The notes below the pieces were generated by a model. The model saw nothing but the letters and a program-made list of their open reading frames with translations, searched no databases and had not been told where the DNA came from. 64,000 nucleotides of DNA from Sodiomyces alkalinus F11 (lineage: Eukaryota > Ascomycota > Sordariomycetes > Glomerellales > Plectosphaerellaceae). The stretch spans positions 4,769,255 through 4,833,254 of the forward strand of contig NW_021167080.1 in assembly GCF_003711515.1 (NCBI RefSeq), read 5' to 3'. Below, in pieces: positions 44,725 to 64,000 of this stretch (position 1 is the stretch's first letter; each line of letters begins with the position of its first letter). A program made the translations under genes and the position numbers.

Positions 44725-45307
44725 TGACCTTTTGCTTCGTCGTTATCAGCAAATGTGTTTTGTTTTGTTTTGTAGGGTGCGAGGGAGACGCAACTCGTTT
44801 GCTGAAGCCGCTTTGGCTGCTTCCTGCGCCATGCGCTGCTCGACGTAGTCCATTTTGCTCGGTGATTCGATTCGGAGATGATTCGGGAGGGTGTGATATT
44901 GGGATTGGGGTCGAGAAGAAAACGTTCCCTGTATTTATGGCCTGGTCAGATCGGCTGTGACAAAGAAGAACGGCAGAAACCAAATTTCCATAAGCAAAAC
45001 TTACGCCGGGTTGCCCAGCAGTATACCTTAGAGAGTGAAGGCCGAGATGCTCCGTCAACTCCGTGGTAGCGGAGGAAGAGGTAAGGCAACACGAAAAGTA
45101 CAAAGTTCTAGAAGCTCGGCTCGGAATATCATAACGCCGACTGGTTCCCCATGATGCACAGGCATGACGCGAATAAGGCAATTCCAAGTCGCAAACTCAA
45201 TCGACCTCTCTCTTAGCTCTTTCGGAGAAGAAGACATTAAATATCTCTATATTAATTTATTTGTTTCGAGATACCTAGCAGATCTCACACTTTTTTATAG
45301 CGTTACT
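44725..45307. other. Dap1 upstream region and left border of the RIP-mutated compartment
   Basis: Left part is normal sequence (Dap1 promoter). From about 45,190 the composition changes abruptly to TpA-rich, CpA/TpG-poor sequence; the last 100 bases are the degraded upstream region of the ATP sulfurylase copy. Confidence 0.6.
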
Positions 45308-47334
45308 ATAGCTAATACCCCTCACGGAGGCGTCATTAAGGACCTCTTCGTTCGCGATACTCCGCGGCACGCTAAGCTTCTGGCCGAGTCGGACACCCTG
45401 CCCGCCTTAACCCTGACGGAACGCTACCTATACGATCTTAAGCTGATCCTTAATAGCGGCTTTTCTCCCCTGGAGGGTGGGTTATTTAGCACTCCGGTAA
45501 AGATAATCCTGGCTAACTAAATATCTAAATTATAGGCTGTATAACAGAGAAAGACTATAACGGGTATATAGTATAGCTCGGAGGCTTAACTTAGTTAGAA
45601 CTCCTACGACTAACTATAACTCTCCTAGTATAGTTATAGAAAACCGATTAGCCGATAGCGCCTTTTTTAGTATACCGATAAACCTCGATATATCTTAGGA
45701 GACTATTAATAAGCTAGGAATTAAGCCCGGTGCCTATATTACCCTATACGACCTTTATAATAACCGCGCTCTCGTTATCCTTACCGTTGAGGATATATAC
45801 AGGCCCGATAAGTACGAAATATATGTACCTAAATTATCCTACCCGGATTAGGCTTAGATACATAAAAAGAAAGGAAGAAAAAAAGAAAAAGAAAAAAAAA
45901 CCGACTAACCTAACCGTTTAGGTCGCTAGAGGCTTAGGAGGTCTTTAGCAGTCCCGATAATAAGACCTACCCCGGTATTAAGTACCTCTTCTATATAGCT
46001 AAGGAATTCTATATTAGTAGTAAGGTTAGGGCCGTTTAAAGACTAGCTTATTATAACTTTTTAGATTTAAGATATAAGTTATCCCTTTACCTCTCGGGCG
46101 GGAGTACGACCCCTAGTTACTAACTTAGTGAATAAAAGTTACCCCTACTAAGCTATAATAGCACTTTAAGAAGCTCGGCTAGAATAAGATTATCGCTTTC
46201 TAGACTTATAACCCTATATACTATACCTATCACGAGCTAACGGTTCGCGCCGCTTAGTCTTAATAAGCTAATATACTTATTTACCCCGTTATCGGCCTAA
46301 CTAAGCCCGGCGATATTAACTACTTTACCCGCGTCCGTGTCTATAAGGCCCTCCTGCCCTAGTACCCTAATAGTATAGCGGCGCTAGCCTTACTACCCCT
46401 GGCTATATATATAGGTAGCCCCTACGAGGCTATCTAGTATACTACTATCCGTAAAAACCACGGCGTAATACACTTTATCGTCGGATATAACTATATTAGT
46501 CCTGGTAAGAATAAGCACGGTAAGGACTTCTACGGCCCTTATAACGCCTAAGTAGCGGTATAGACATACTAGGACGAGTTAGGTATTAAGATAGTCGAGT
46601 TCTAGGAGATAATCTATATCCCCGACTATAATAAATACTAGCTGGCTAATATGATTCCTAAGGGCACCCGTATAGCTAATATCTCCGGCACTAAGCTCCG
46701 TTACCGCCTAAGGACCGGTAAGGAGATCCCTATATAGTTCTCGTATCCGGAAATAGTTAAGGTTCTCCACGAGCAGAACCCCCTACCTTCGACTAAGGGC
46801 TTTACCGTCTTCCTAACTAGCTATACTAATAGCGGTAAGGACTAAATCGCGCGTGCGCTATAGGTAACGCTAAATTAGAGTGGCGGGCGGTCCGTATTAA
46901 TACTATTAAGCGAGATAGTGCGGTCAGAGCTATTATCAGAGCTTAGTTTTAGCCGCGAGGACCGTGATAAGAACGTGGCGTATATTGTGTTTATAGTATC
47001 GGAGCTAATACGCGCCGGTGCGACCGTTATTACCGCTCCTATTACCCCCTACGAAGAGGCCTATTAGTAGGCCTAAGAGCTTATAGAGAAGTCGGGCCCC
47101 TTTTTCCTTATTTACGTGGTAATACCGCTCGAGTACCCTAAGAAGACAGACCGGCGAAGTATCAATAAGAAGGCCCGGGCCGGTAAGATTAAGGGTTTTA
47201 CAGGCGTCGATAACCCGTATAAGAACCTCGTTAAGCCAGACTTAGTTATTAACTACGAGAAGTAAACCGTGCGGTCTATTATATACTAGATCATCTTACT
47301 GCTTAAGAGCTAAGGTCTGCTAGATAGGCTATAA
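45308..47334 (+). pseudogene. RIP-mutated copy of ATP sulfurylase (sulfate adenylyltransferase)
   Basis: ATP sulfurylase activates sulfate to APS, the first step of sulfate assimilation. This copy is dead. The start codon is ATA (ATG changed by TG to TA) at 45,308, and many stops interrupt it. Yet in one consistent set of exons the family can be followed end to end: [33 protein letters not shown]; after introns, YNG..ENRLADSA, ILTVEDIYRPDK; then RNP-region fragments, [39 protein letters not shown]; then the C-terminal APS-kinase-like allosteric domain (NSGKDQIARALQVTLNQSGG with TAA/TAG at three of its Gln codons, near 46,843-46,878) to GLLDRL and a stop at 47,332. Introns are retained, with GT donors and TAG ends visible near 45,480-45,535 and 45,570-45,625. 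So it derives from genomic DNA. Stops sit at Gln codons, as expected from CAA/CAG to TAA/TAG. The fungal single-chain, allosteric form is the parent. Confidence 0.9.
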
Positions 47335-62850: not shown

Positions 62851-62869
62851 CCCTTCCTAATATTATATT

Positions 62870-64000
62870 TTAACTATTAACTAGGCTAGTACTTAGCCGT
62901 GGCCGACTCGCAGTAACTACAGTGCTCCGGTCCTCTAGGAGATTATACGTAATAGGGAAGTCGGATACCGTGCTTCGGGGCTATAAGAGAGAGGCGGACG
63001 CTATAAGTAAGATATAATTTAAGAATATAAGTAAGATATAGAAATATACGATATAGGTAGCGGCGAGGCAGTATACTAGTAAGATCTTCCTAGGTACGCC
63101 TTAGCTATAAGACTCTATGCCCTTTTCTATACTTCATCTTTAGTCTAGCTCGATATCCTAGCCCTAGTTAGAAAGTCGAAGAGTCGAAGAGTCGAAGAGG
63201 GGAACTTATAATTATAGGCAGCTCTCCAGGCAAATACGGGAGTATAACAAGACTAGCTAGAACTAACTATCGTAATCGCGAATCTTTTTTAAGAATCTTT
63301 ATCCTATACCACTATCTAAAGTACCGAAAAAACCGTCGATTTTCCTTCAATACTAGTATACCCGCCTAAAGGCTAAGTTCTAGGATACCGTCTCCGTCGT
63401 TACCCTCTGCTAGCACTCCCGCCCTAGTATATTCGCCTTTTACTTTAAGCCCCGCGCTAGTATATACCGCTCCTAGGCCCTCGTGGCCGGGAAAGCCCTA
63501 CATGTATATCTCGGCTAAGCCCTAGCCGAAGGCGACCGCGATACCCTCCGCGAAATCTATATCCCCGAGCTATACTAGGCCCTCTCCGCTACTATTAATA
63601 AACGTAAGCCCTAGGAACGTACTACCTAGAGTATCGTGTAGAACCACGGTGCCCGCCTTATCACGCACCGCGTCGCTATCCTGCTACCGCCCCTACTAAA
63701 GGATCTTATAGTCTAGCAGGCCGTTATAGCTATTAATATAACGTAGTTATTAGATCGAGTCGACGCCCGTAATAGAAAGAGTATACCTAGTACGGCGCGC
63801 GTGTAGTGGTGGACGGAGTTCTTAGCGCTCTCGAAAGAATAGAATAGCGATATATACACTTCGGGTCCGTGGTAAGTTATCAGTAATATAAAGGAGACTA
63901 CCTTAGATTCTTAGTAGAAGGAAGAGGGGGATCTTAAGGTTATACAGGCTATCTAGACGGAGAAGGCCTTAAAGAACAATATTAAAGGGGGGAAGACACT
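62870..64000 (+). pseudogene. RIP-mutated copy of a Tim44-like / Mba1-type mitochondrial protein (tentative, runs off right edge)
   Basis: The best part is 63,340-63,830, one frame with stops at Gln codons: YFKPRASIYRSQALVAGKAL, then LGQALAEGDRDTLREIYIPEL, ATINKRKPQERTT, ARLITHRVAILLPP, KDLIVQQAVIAI. This resembles the Tim44-like fold of mitochondrial membrane-associated proteins such as Mba1/mL45, which hold the ribosome at the inner membrane (pattern: EGDxxxLRxI..L, then HRxA.LP, then QAVxxI). Upstream, 62,900-63,120 reads as an Arg-rich N-terminus compatible with a mitochondrial presequence, probably with an intron between. The family call is from memory of the pattern and is less sure than for the other copies. 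Confidence 0.5.

Follow-up and report, generated by a model that had tools for sequence, protein, structure and literature searches.

The chromosome of Sodiomyces alkalinus F11 (Plectosphaerellaceae, Glomerellales) carries a compartment that we read as a second, rearranged copy of the fungus's own mating-type neighbourhood, purged by repeat-induced point mutation (RIP); we put the probability of this reading at about 0.7. The compartment begins in a window of 64,000 nucleotides, positions 4769255-4833254 of contig NW_021167080.1 (C2; 6,539,281 bases, about 6.54 Mb, in a genome of 43.4 Mb and 22 contigs), and extends from C2:4814438 to about C2:4880200. Coordinates above 64000 continue those of the window (C2 position = 4769254 + x), which places the compartment at extended positions 45184 to about 110900. 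Hereafter, "copy" denotes this RIPed compartment and "parent" the intact block on the same contig. A block that begins at ATP sulfurylase, takes in SLA2, the mating-type (MAT) locus, APN2 and APC5 and reaches a GH43 gene has been duplicated to a site some 1.3 Mb off on its own contig, and we suggest that RIP hit the duplicated DNA in a later cross. Meiotic recombination with an unduplicated mate could then have given progeny with a dead copy and intact parent genes. The strain would have been left with MAT1-2-1 at its native APN2-SLA2 locus and MAT1-1-1 in the dead copy, an arrangement in which self-fertility would be possible.

RIP in the copy and the order of the parent block

The left part of the window is ordinary, un-RIPed chromosome (1-45183; GC content 0.554, composite RIP index -0.32). 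To its right, the index is 1.31 for 45184-52212, 0.60 for 56021-58060 and 1.14 for 58110-64000, and of the 19 one-kb windows that start at 45001, 17 lie above 0.31, the highest value in any of the 45 windows on the left. RIP here is strong, and the RIP that a first-pass annotation of this DNA had noted is confirmed. The two exceptions, 52001-54000, lie over an un-RIPed retroelement-like island. From 44001-45000 to 45001-46000 the index jumps from -0.08 to 1.09, within one kb of the edge of the duplication, where it is too noisy to read in 150-bp windows. No N bases occur in 45000-112000, that is, throughout the compartment.

The changes in the copy bear the signature of RIP. In local blastn alignments of copy with parent (37,499 aligned positions in 10 segments), 2992 of 4646 parental CpA dinucleotides (64%) read TpA in the copy, while C reads T in 629/5566 CpC (11%), 1350/5303 CpG (25%) and 542/4831 CpT (11%). 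Both strands are affected, with 2830 C>T and 2683 G>A changes. When 13 RIPed segments were tested singly, each in the copy and in the parent direction, all 13 showed a CpA excess in the copy, with P values from 4e-10 down; the CpA loss in 45184-52212 is 71%. In-frame stops interrupt every one of 15 parental coding stretches projected onto the copy, between 5 and 62 in each stretch and 331 over the 5648 codons together, and the same 16.9 kb has 24 indels that shift the frame; the stretches were hand-chosen, and some are open reading frames (ORFs) that may not be exons. As to whether RIP is limited to duplicated DNA, a gag-like island and MAT1-1-1 are un-RIPed, but the tested segments had been preselected for having a parent, and the pieces 75882-78516 and 84472-85172 are un-RIPed though homologous to the parent. 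Matches to the cytosine methyltransferase profile PF00145, which does not tell RID from DIM-2, were found at three places, on contigs C10, C7 and C2.

The genome was searched with copy stretches 45001-64000, 74001-84000, 89000-94000 and 94001-104000; repeat-like multi-match DNA aside, their host segments match a single region, C2 6.12-6.29 Mb. Inside the window each match is an unbroken stretch of genomic DNA, 2-7 kb long, so introns and intergenic DNA are included in the copy, and by hand sum about 14.5 of the compartment's 18.8 kb there aligns to the parent block. All of these matches are inverted (minus strand). The first, 45184-52212, forms the left edge of the duplication, copies C2:6225786-6218836 (blastn, 77% over 7.1 kb), and contains a dead ATP sulfurylase (45265-47331, 24 in-frame stops) and a dead 851-codon ORF (49042-51597, 39 in-frame stops). 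The second, 56021-58060, copies 6204269-6202272 and contains a dead intradiol (catechol) dioxygenase (56387-57587, 7 stops in the 259 codons compared). A dead eIF1 (SUI1) ORF (59013-59389) and a dead 211-codon ORF projected from the parent (61055-61664) lie in 58110-62355, which copies 6172702-6168823, and a dead Tim44-like gene (63247-64001, 17 stops in 252 codons) lies in 62582-68290, which copies 6168346-6162789 and runs past the window's end at 64000. The gene names come from Pfam matches in the parent, mapped to the copy.

Farther right, blastn aligns 68295-70399 with parent 6162490-6160333, 70393-72823 with 6148152-6145602, 85469-87236 with 6133952-6132147, 87674-89925 with 6132151-6129887 and 89912-94440 with 6287055-6282684, all inverted, and, in direct orientation, 95856-107248 with 6118237-6129828 and 107250-109007 with 6287062-6288854. 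The un-RIPed pieces 75882-78516 (parent 6134241-6137257) and 84472-85172 (6133528-6134235) are also direct. Undoing a single inversion in the copy (89925-107248) makes the order run from 6225786 down to 6118237 and then from 6282684 to 6288854. The ends of this inversion share two parent points, 6129828/6129887 and 6287055/6287062, and because the last four pieces have these breakpoints in common, one inversion restores the parent order. A circular-DNA intermediate, considered for the jump in parent order from 6130 to 6287 kb, was dropped, since 95856-107248 is oppositely oriented and one inversion suffices.

These results recast the origin of the compartment. The first-pass annotation had recognized ATP sulfurylase, intradiol dioxygenase, eIF1 and a Tim44-like gene as dead genomic copies, introns included, and had called for a search for intact parents; the copies are as described, and the parents were found elsewhere in the same genome. 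It had further proposed that unrelated genes were captured into one locus repeatedly and then RIPed, and that they were unlikely to be one syntenic block. That the genes belong to different pathways favours such capture, but the parents keep the gene order of the copy within a single block of a single contig, an outcome set beforehand as telling against it, and we regard one-by-one capture as exceedingly improbable. What survives of that account is the nature of the genes themselves, host-gene duplicates changed by RIP whose intact parents lie elsewhere in the genome. Nor is the compartment mainly transposons at a chromosome end, in a subtelomeric position as had been suggested: most of its part inside the window matches parent DNA, and it lies at 4.81-4.88 Mb of the 6.54 Mb contig.

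Pfam was run on 18 parent ORFs, MAT1-1-1 and the gag-like ORF, then on 6 further parent ORFs. The parent block yielded ATP sulfurylase/APS kinase, catechol dioxygenase, SUI1 (eIF1), Tim44-like, SLA2 (ANTH, I/LWEQ), APN2-like nuclease, APC5, GH43, PH/MMM1, CIA30 and HMG-box matches, while 8 of the 26 ORFs had none at the threshold used. The parents are now pushed apart at their own site, by a RIPed stretch of 14.6 kb that separates the first segment from the second, where the copy has 3.8 kb of other elements, and by a 29.6 kb spacer between the second and third, where the copy has about 50 bp. Seven kb of the 14.6 kb stretch is a multi-copy element with at least 10 near-full-length matches elsewhere, and the spacer was sampled over about 9.6 kb at its two ends, on either side of 6180001-6200000, both of which are RIPed. 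The parent MAT region thus holds, at 6204300-6218800 and 6172700-6202300, RIPed and partly multi-copy DNA amid intact housekeeping genes. Since the copy is without these RIPed inserts, they are probably younger than the duplication. The copy also lacks parent 6148152-6160333, and hence the 5´ part of SLA2 and the CIA30 gene; because of this gap, and because APN2-MAT-SLA2 is the usual order, we take the copy to be the derived one.

Mating-type genes at two loci

At the parent site the reading frames of APN2, MAT1-2-1 and SLA2 are open; in the copy, RIP has killed all three. The parent HMG box gives two adjoining matches, 6130281-6130391 and 6130436-6130537, as if split by an intron, and we read the gene as MAT1-2-1 because of this box and of its position between APN2 and SLA2, the usual MAT neighbours (PMC10153710; PMC3778014). 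The native MAT1-2-1 appears to be open across its exon-like ORFs, which include the HMG box. MAT1-1-1 lies at 82956-84259, inside the compartment and 19 kb past the window, and it is open and un-RIPed, with a RIP index of -0.6 to -1.6 in 250-bp windows (82751 to 84250). Its alpha box (PF04769, E 4e-36) is the only match to this profile in the genome, two candidates having been scored, and its ORF is 100% identical to SODALDRAFT_349317 over 98% of the query. Residues 1-100 and 121-400 of the annotated 434 aa were placed in the DNA without stops, the last residues forming a further exon; a search for relatives in a large protein set returned a single match, the species' own protein. The genome has two MAT genes at separate loci, MAT1-2-1 native and MAT1-1-1 in the copy, 1.28 Mb apart on the same contig. 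We suggest that RIP spared MAT1-1-1 because it has no homologous partner in the genome. Were the gene as old as the copy, about 1.8 non-RIP stops and 1.8 frameshifts would be expected under neutrality, and none was observed (rough P 0.026). Assuming that it has resided there as long as the copy, this shortfall lends mild support to MAT1-1-1 being under selection.

Several points weigh against our reading. A RIPed MAT1-2-1 (87674-89925) also lies within the copy, which implies either a donor in which the two MAT genes were adjacent or a later arrival of MAT1-1-1; going outward from MAT1-1-1, it is met beyond the un-RIPed pieces and is followed by APN2. The un-RIPed pieces (75882-78516 and 84472-85172) are homologous to the parent, at 73-84% identity with 9.1% transversions, and are turned round, which calls for two more local inversions around MAT1-1-1. 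It is plausible that they were too diverged for RIP, but some RIPed non-coding segments are equally diverged (3.2-11.2%). Pooled, the pieces have no marked CpA excess in the copy (CpA/CpC/CpG/CpT = 0.157/0.120/0.134/0.124; 2800 positions), but one of their four parts, 77212-78516, has a mild excess (23/133 vs 47/504, P=0.009). To explain the piece from 6282684-6288854, either parent DNA 6118237-6282683 was inverted or there was a second event. Copy stretches 64001-74000, 84001-88999 and 104001-110900 were compared solely with selected parent DNA, and the data are the assembled sequence of a single strain. Finally, cleistothecia from cultures and colonies raised from single ascospores, described in PMC5706713, fit selfing without proving it.

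The RIPed MAT1-2-1 beside MAT1-1-1 is what a variant of our reading, differing in the order of events, would predict. A fused self-fertile locus with MAT1-1-1 next to MAT1-2-1 would have been duplicated, and the native copy would have lost MAT1-1-1 before RIP, possibly through looping out at repeats, leaving only one MAT1-1-1 in the genome at the time of RIP. Parent 6133528-6133952 is indeed present twice in the copy (from 84472 and from 85469 onward), both times to the right of MAT1-1-1. Turning round MAT1-1-1 together with 84472-85172 makes these repeats flank the gene as direct repeats, and Chromocrea spinulosa offers a described case of direct repeats at MAT that loop out the DNA between them (PMC5608430). 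However, the two repeats are now mutually inverted and 79% alike over 136 bp, one is RIPed and the other is not, and the native loss must precede RIP. We consider this course possible, with the odds leaning against it.

Alternatively, MAT1-1-1 may have come later into the RIPed block, by recombination with a MAT1-1 strain. The 9.1% transversions of the neighbouring un-RIPed pieces, compared with 5.6% in RIPed non-coding DNA, are what an older, separate haplotype would give. Such an entry needs homologous recombination in a block just 75-82% identical, though, and the segment-to-segment variation noted above is large; we think it unlikely. If two nuclei or strains that differ in mating type had been misassembled as one, both MAT genes would likewise appear in one assembly, and their co-occurrence is known from assembled sequence alone. 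Against this, the compartment is free of N, RIPed sequence lies on both sides of MAT1-1-1, and a mixed culture would not yield a RIPed copy of the flanks, which makes such an artefact very improbable.

Other observations concern the surroundings of the two genes. A 309-codon parent ORF (6132325-6133251) between MAT1-2-1 and SLA2 has no Pfam match and is RIP-dead in the copy, with 19 stops in 297 codons. It is possibly a MAT1-2-linked gene; as a MAT1-1-1 remnant it was rejected, there being no similarity. A search for MAT1-1-2 gave no match, as did its positive control, and so does not demonstrate absence. None of ten ORFs beside MAT1-1-1 matched Pfam above the cut-off. Two RIPed stretches of 2.9 kb, 97.8% alike (72860-75702 and 78763-81641; C2:4842114-4850895), form an inverted repeat that brackets the un-RIPed, roughly 3 kb piece 75882-78516, which is next to MAT1-1-1 and inverted relative to its surroundings; the segment between them might flip by recombination. 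Their few differences suggest that the repeats arose or were equalised after RIP. Elsewhere, HMG-box matches at C16:578628-578929 and C22:61597-61898 have identical scores and an identical split, and one lies less than 700 bases from the end of the C16 contig; the pair is either a recent duplicate or an assembly overlap.

RIP in the parents and a proposed course of events

In Neurospora, RIP mutates duplicated chromosome segments, and both copies are struck in the duplication-bearing nucleus before meiosis. As there, CpA has become TpA on both strands of a duplicated segment in F11; unlike there, the sister block is almost unRIPed and a gene inside the segment escaped. The first-pass annotation had held that RIP should hit the parents as well, and for the most part they do not show it. 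In the parent direction (C in the copy, T in the parent), the spectrum pooled over 10 segments is 114/1720 (0.066) for CpA, 0.061 for CpC, 0.057 for CpG and 0.062 for CpT, a flatness that argues against general RIP of the parents. A clear trace was found in only one of the 13 parent segments, 6285828-6287055 (10/45 CpA vs 13/403, P=1.7e-5). Borderline CpA excesses in 6160333-6162490 (P=0.038) and 6129887-6132151 (P=0.029) are not significant for 13 tests; ten segments have no excess, and 12 have none that survives correction. The traced stretch sits in a 460-codon ORF without a Pfam match.

Recombination with an unduplicated mate would account for the unmutated parents. Exchange over the 1.24 Mb between the loci would have joined the dead copy to the mate's intact parent genes, and other progeny would have been sick or dead, because the block holds housekeeping genes. 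The light trace in 6285828-6287055 fits a parent block once exposed to RIP and then mostly replaced or selected. Parents nearly free of RIP would also be expected if the block had been RIPed in another lineage and introgressed, the local parents never having met RIP. However, one parent stretch does bear a trace, rescue by an outcross within the species needs fewer steps, and the comparison is of one strain only; introgression seems to us improbable.

Transversions speak to constraint since the duplication. Under an approximate coding map of the 13 segments, coding DNA has 511/19863 (2.57%) and non-coding DNA 1305/23171 (5.63%), and a ratio near 1:2 is expected if the copy alone lost constraint and the parent stayed under selection. 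By segment they range from 1.6 to 3.8% in coding DNA (the ten segments that have over 700 coding positions) and from 3.2 to 11.2% in non-coding DNA (twelve segments). A single age for all segments was rejected on account of this unevenness, which makes a second event possible for some pieces.

Other elements and known mating systems

Between the first and second duplicated segments, the window contains mobile-element-like DNA, whose element names are our reading. Adjoining the end of the first segment is an un-RIPed island (52213-53560, minus strand; composite index -0.44) with no DNA match elsewhere in the genome. Its ORF (52222-53460, minus strand; 412 codons, 394 from the first ATG) is free of stops. 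We name it as the gag of a presumed long terminal repeat (LTR) retroelement, although it had no Pfam match, and in a large protein set it matched only itself. Among the 106 matches listed (best 105 of 227 candidates), it is the only stop-free full-length one, and most of the other full-length matches listed carry about 17-30 stops; it may be a recent arrival or a retained gene. An LTR-like sequence follows (53561-56020), broken by a RIPed AT-rich element (about 53908-55733) whose mariner-like inverted ends were read directly. A second LTR-like copy lies inside that element (54364-54799), and the LTR-like copies match each other and extended 87237-87671.

Two MAT genes in one haploid genome have precedents. 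Published accounts describe unlinked MAT loci with two-locus homothallism in Gaeumannomyces (PMC11905480) and MAT1-1 and MAT1-2 genes at separate loci of one haploid genome in Neosartorya (Aspergillus) fischeri (Rydholm et al., 2007, via PMC13401452). The F11 genome resembles those of Gaeumannomyces tritici and N. fischeri in this respect; it differs in that its genes share one contig and that one of them is embedded in a copy of the other's surroundings which RIP has destroyed, a RIPed MAT1-2-1 lying next to it. The N. fischeri mating-type paper is said to report degenerate flanks, which may be a precedent in part. Chromocrea spinulosa (PMC5608430) and Monilinia vaccinii-corymbosi (PMC8022979) have fused MAT loci in which repeats mediate deletion. 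Like these, the F11 copy combines the two MAT genes in one locus and has a repeat near MAT1-1-1; unlike them, its MAT1-2-1 is RIP-dead and its repeats are diverged and inverted. A search of titles and abstracts, with most subscription papers outside its coverage, found no report of a RIP-duplicated MAT region combined with two-locus homothallism, and none in Sodiomyces. Two-locus homothallism and RIP of duplicated segments are each known on their own.

If our reading is right, the puzzle of how essential parent genes survived would be answered, as they bear almost no RIP and lie far enough from the copy for exchange by recombination. A RIP-active fungus would have gained a second mating-type gene without harmful duplicate neighbours; the non-homology of the idiomorphs would have shielded that gene naturally, and the dead flanks would record what happened. 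Tentatively, and at somewhat less than even odds, we suggest that RIP itself shaped the mating system. A RIP-active fungus would not tolerate a duplicated MAT region, but RIP would erase the neighbours of the second mating-type gene and spare the gene itself, since idiomorphs are non-homologous. The result would be a stable, RIP-proof two-locus MAT arrangement, and a route from outcrossing to selfing that could be open to any RIP-active ascomycete.

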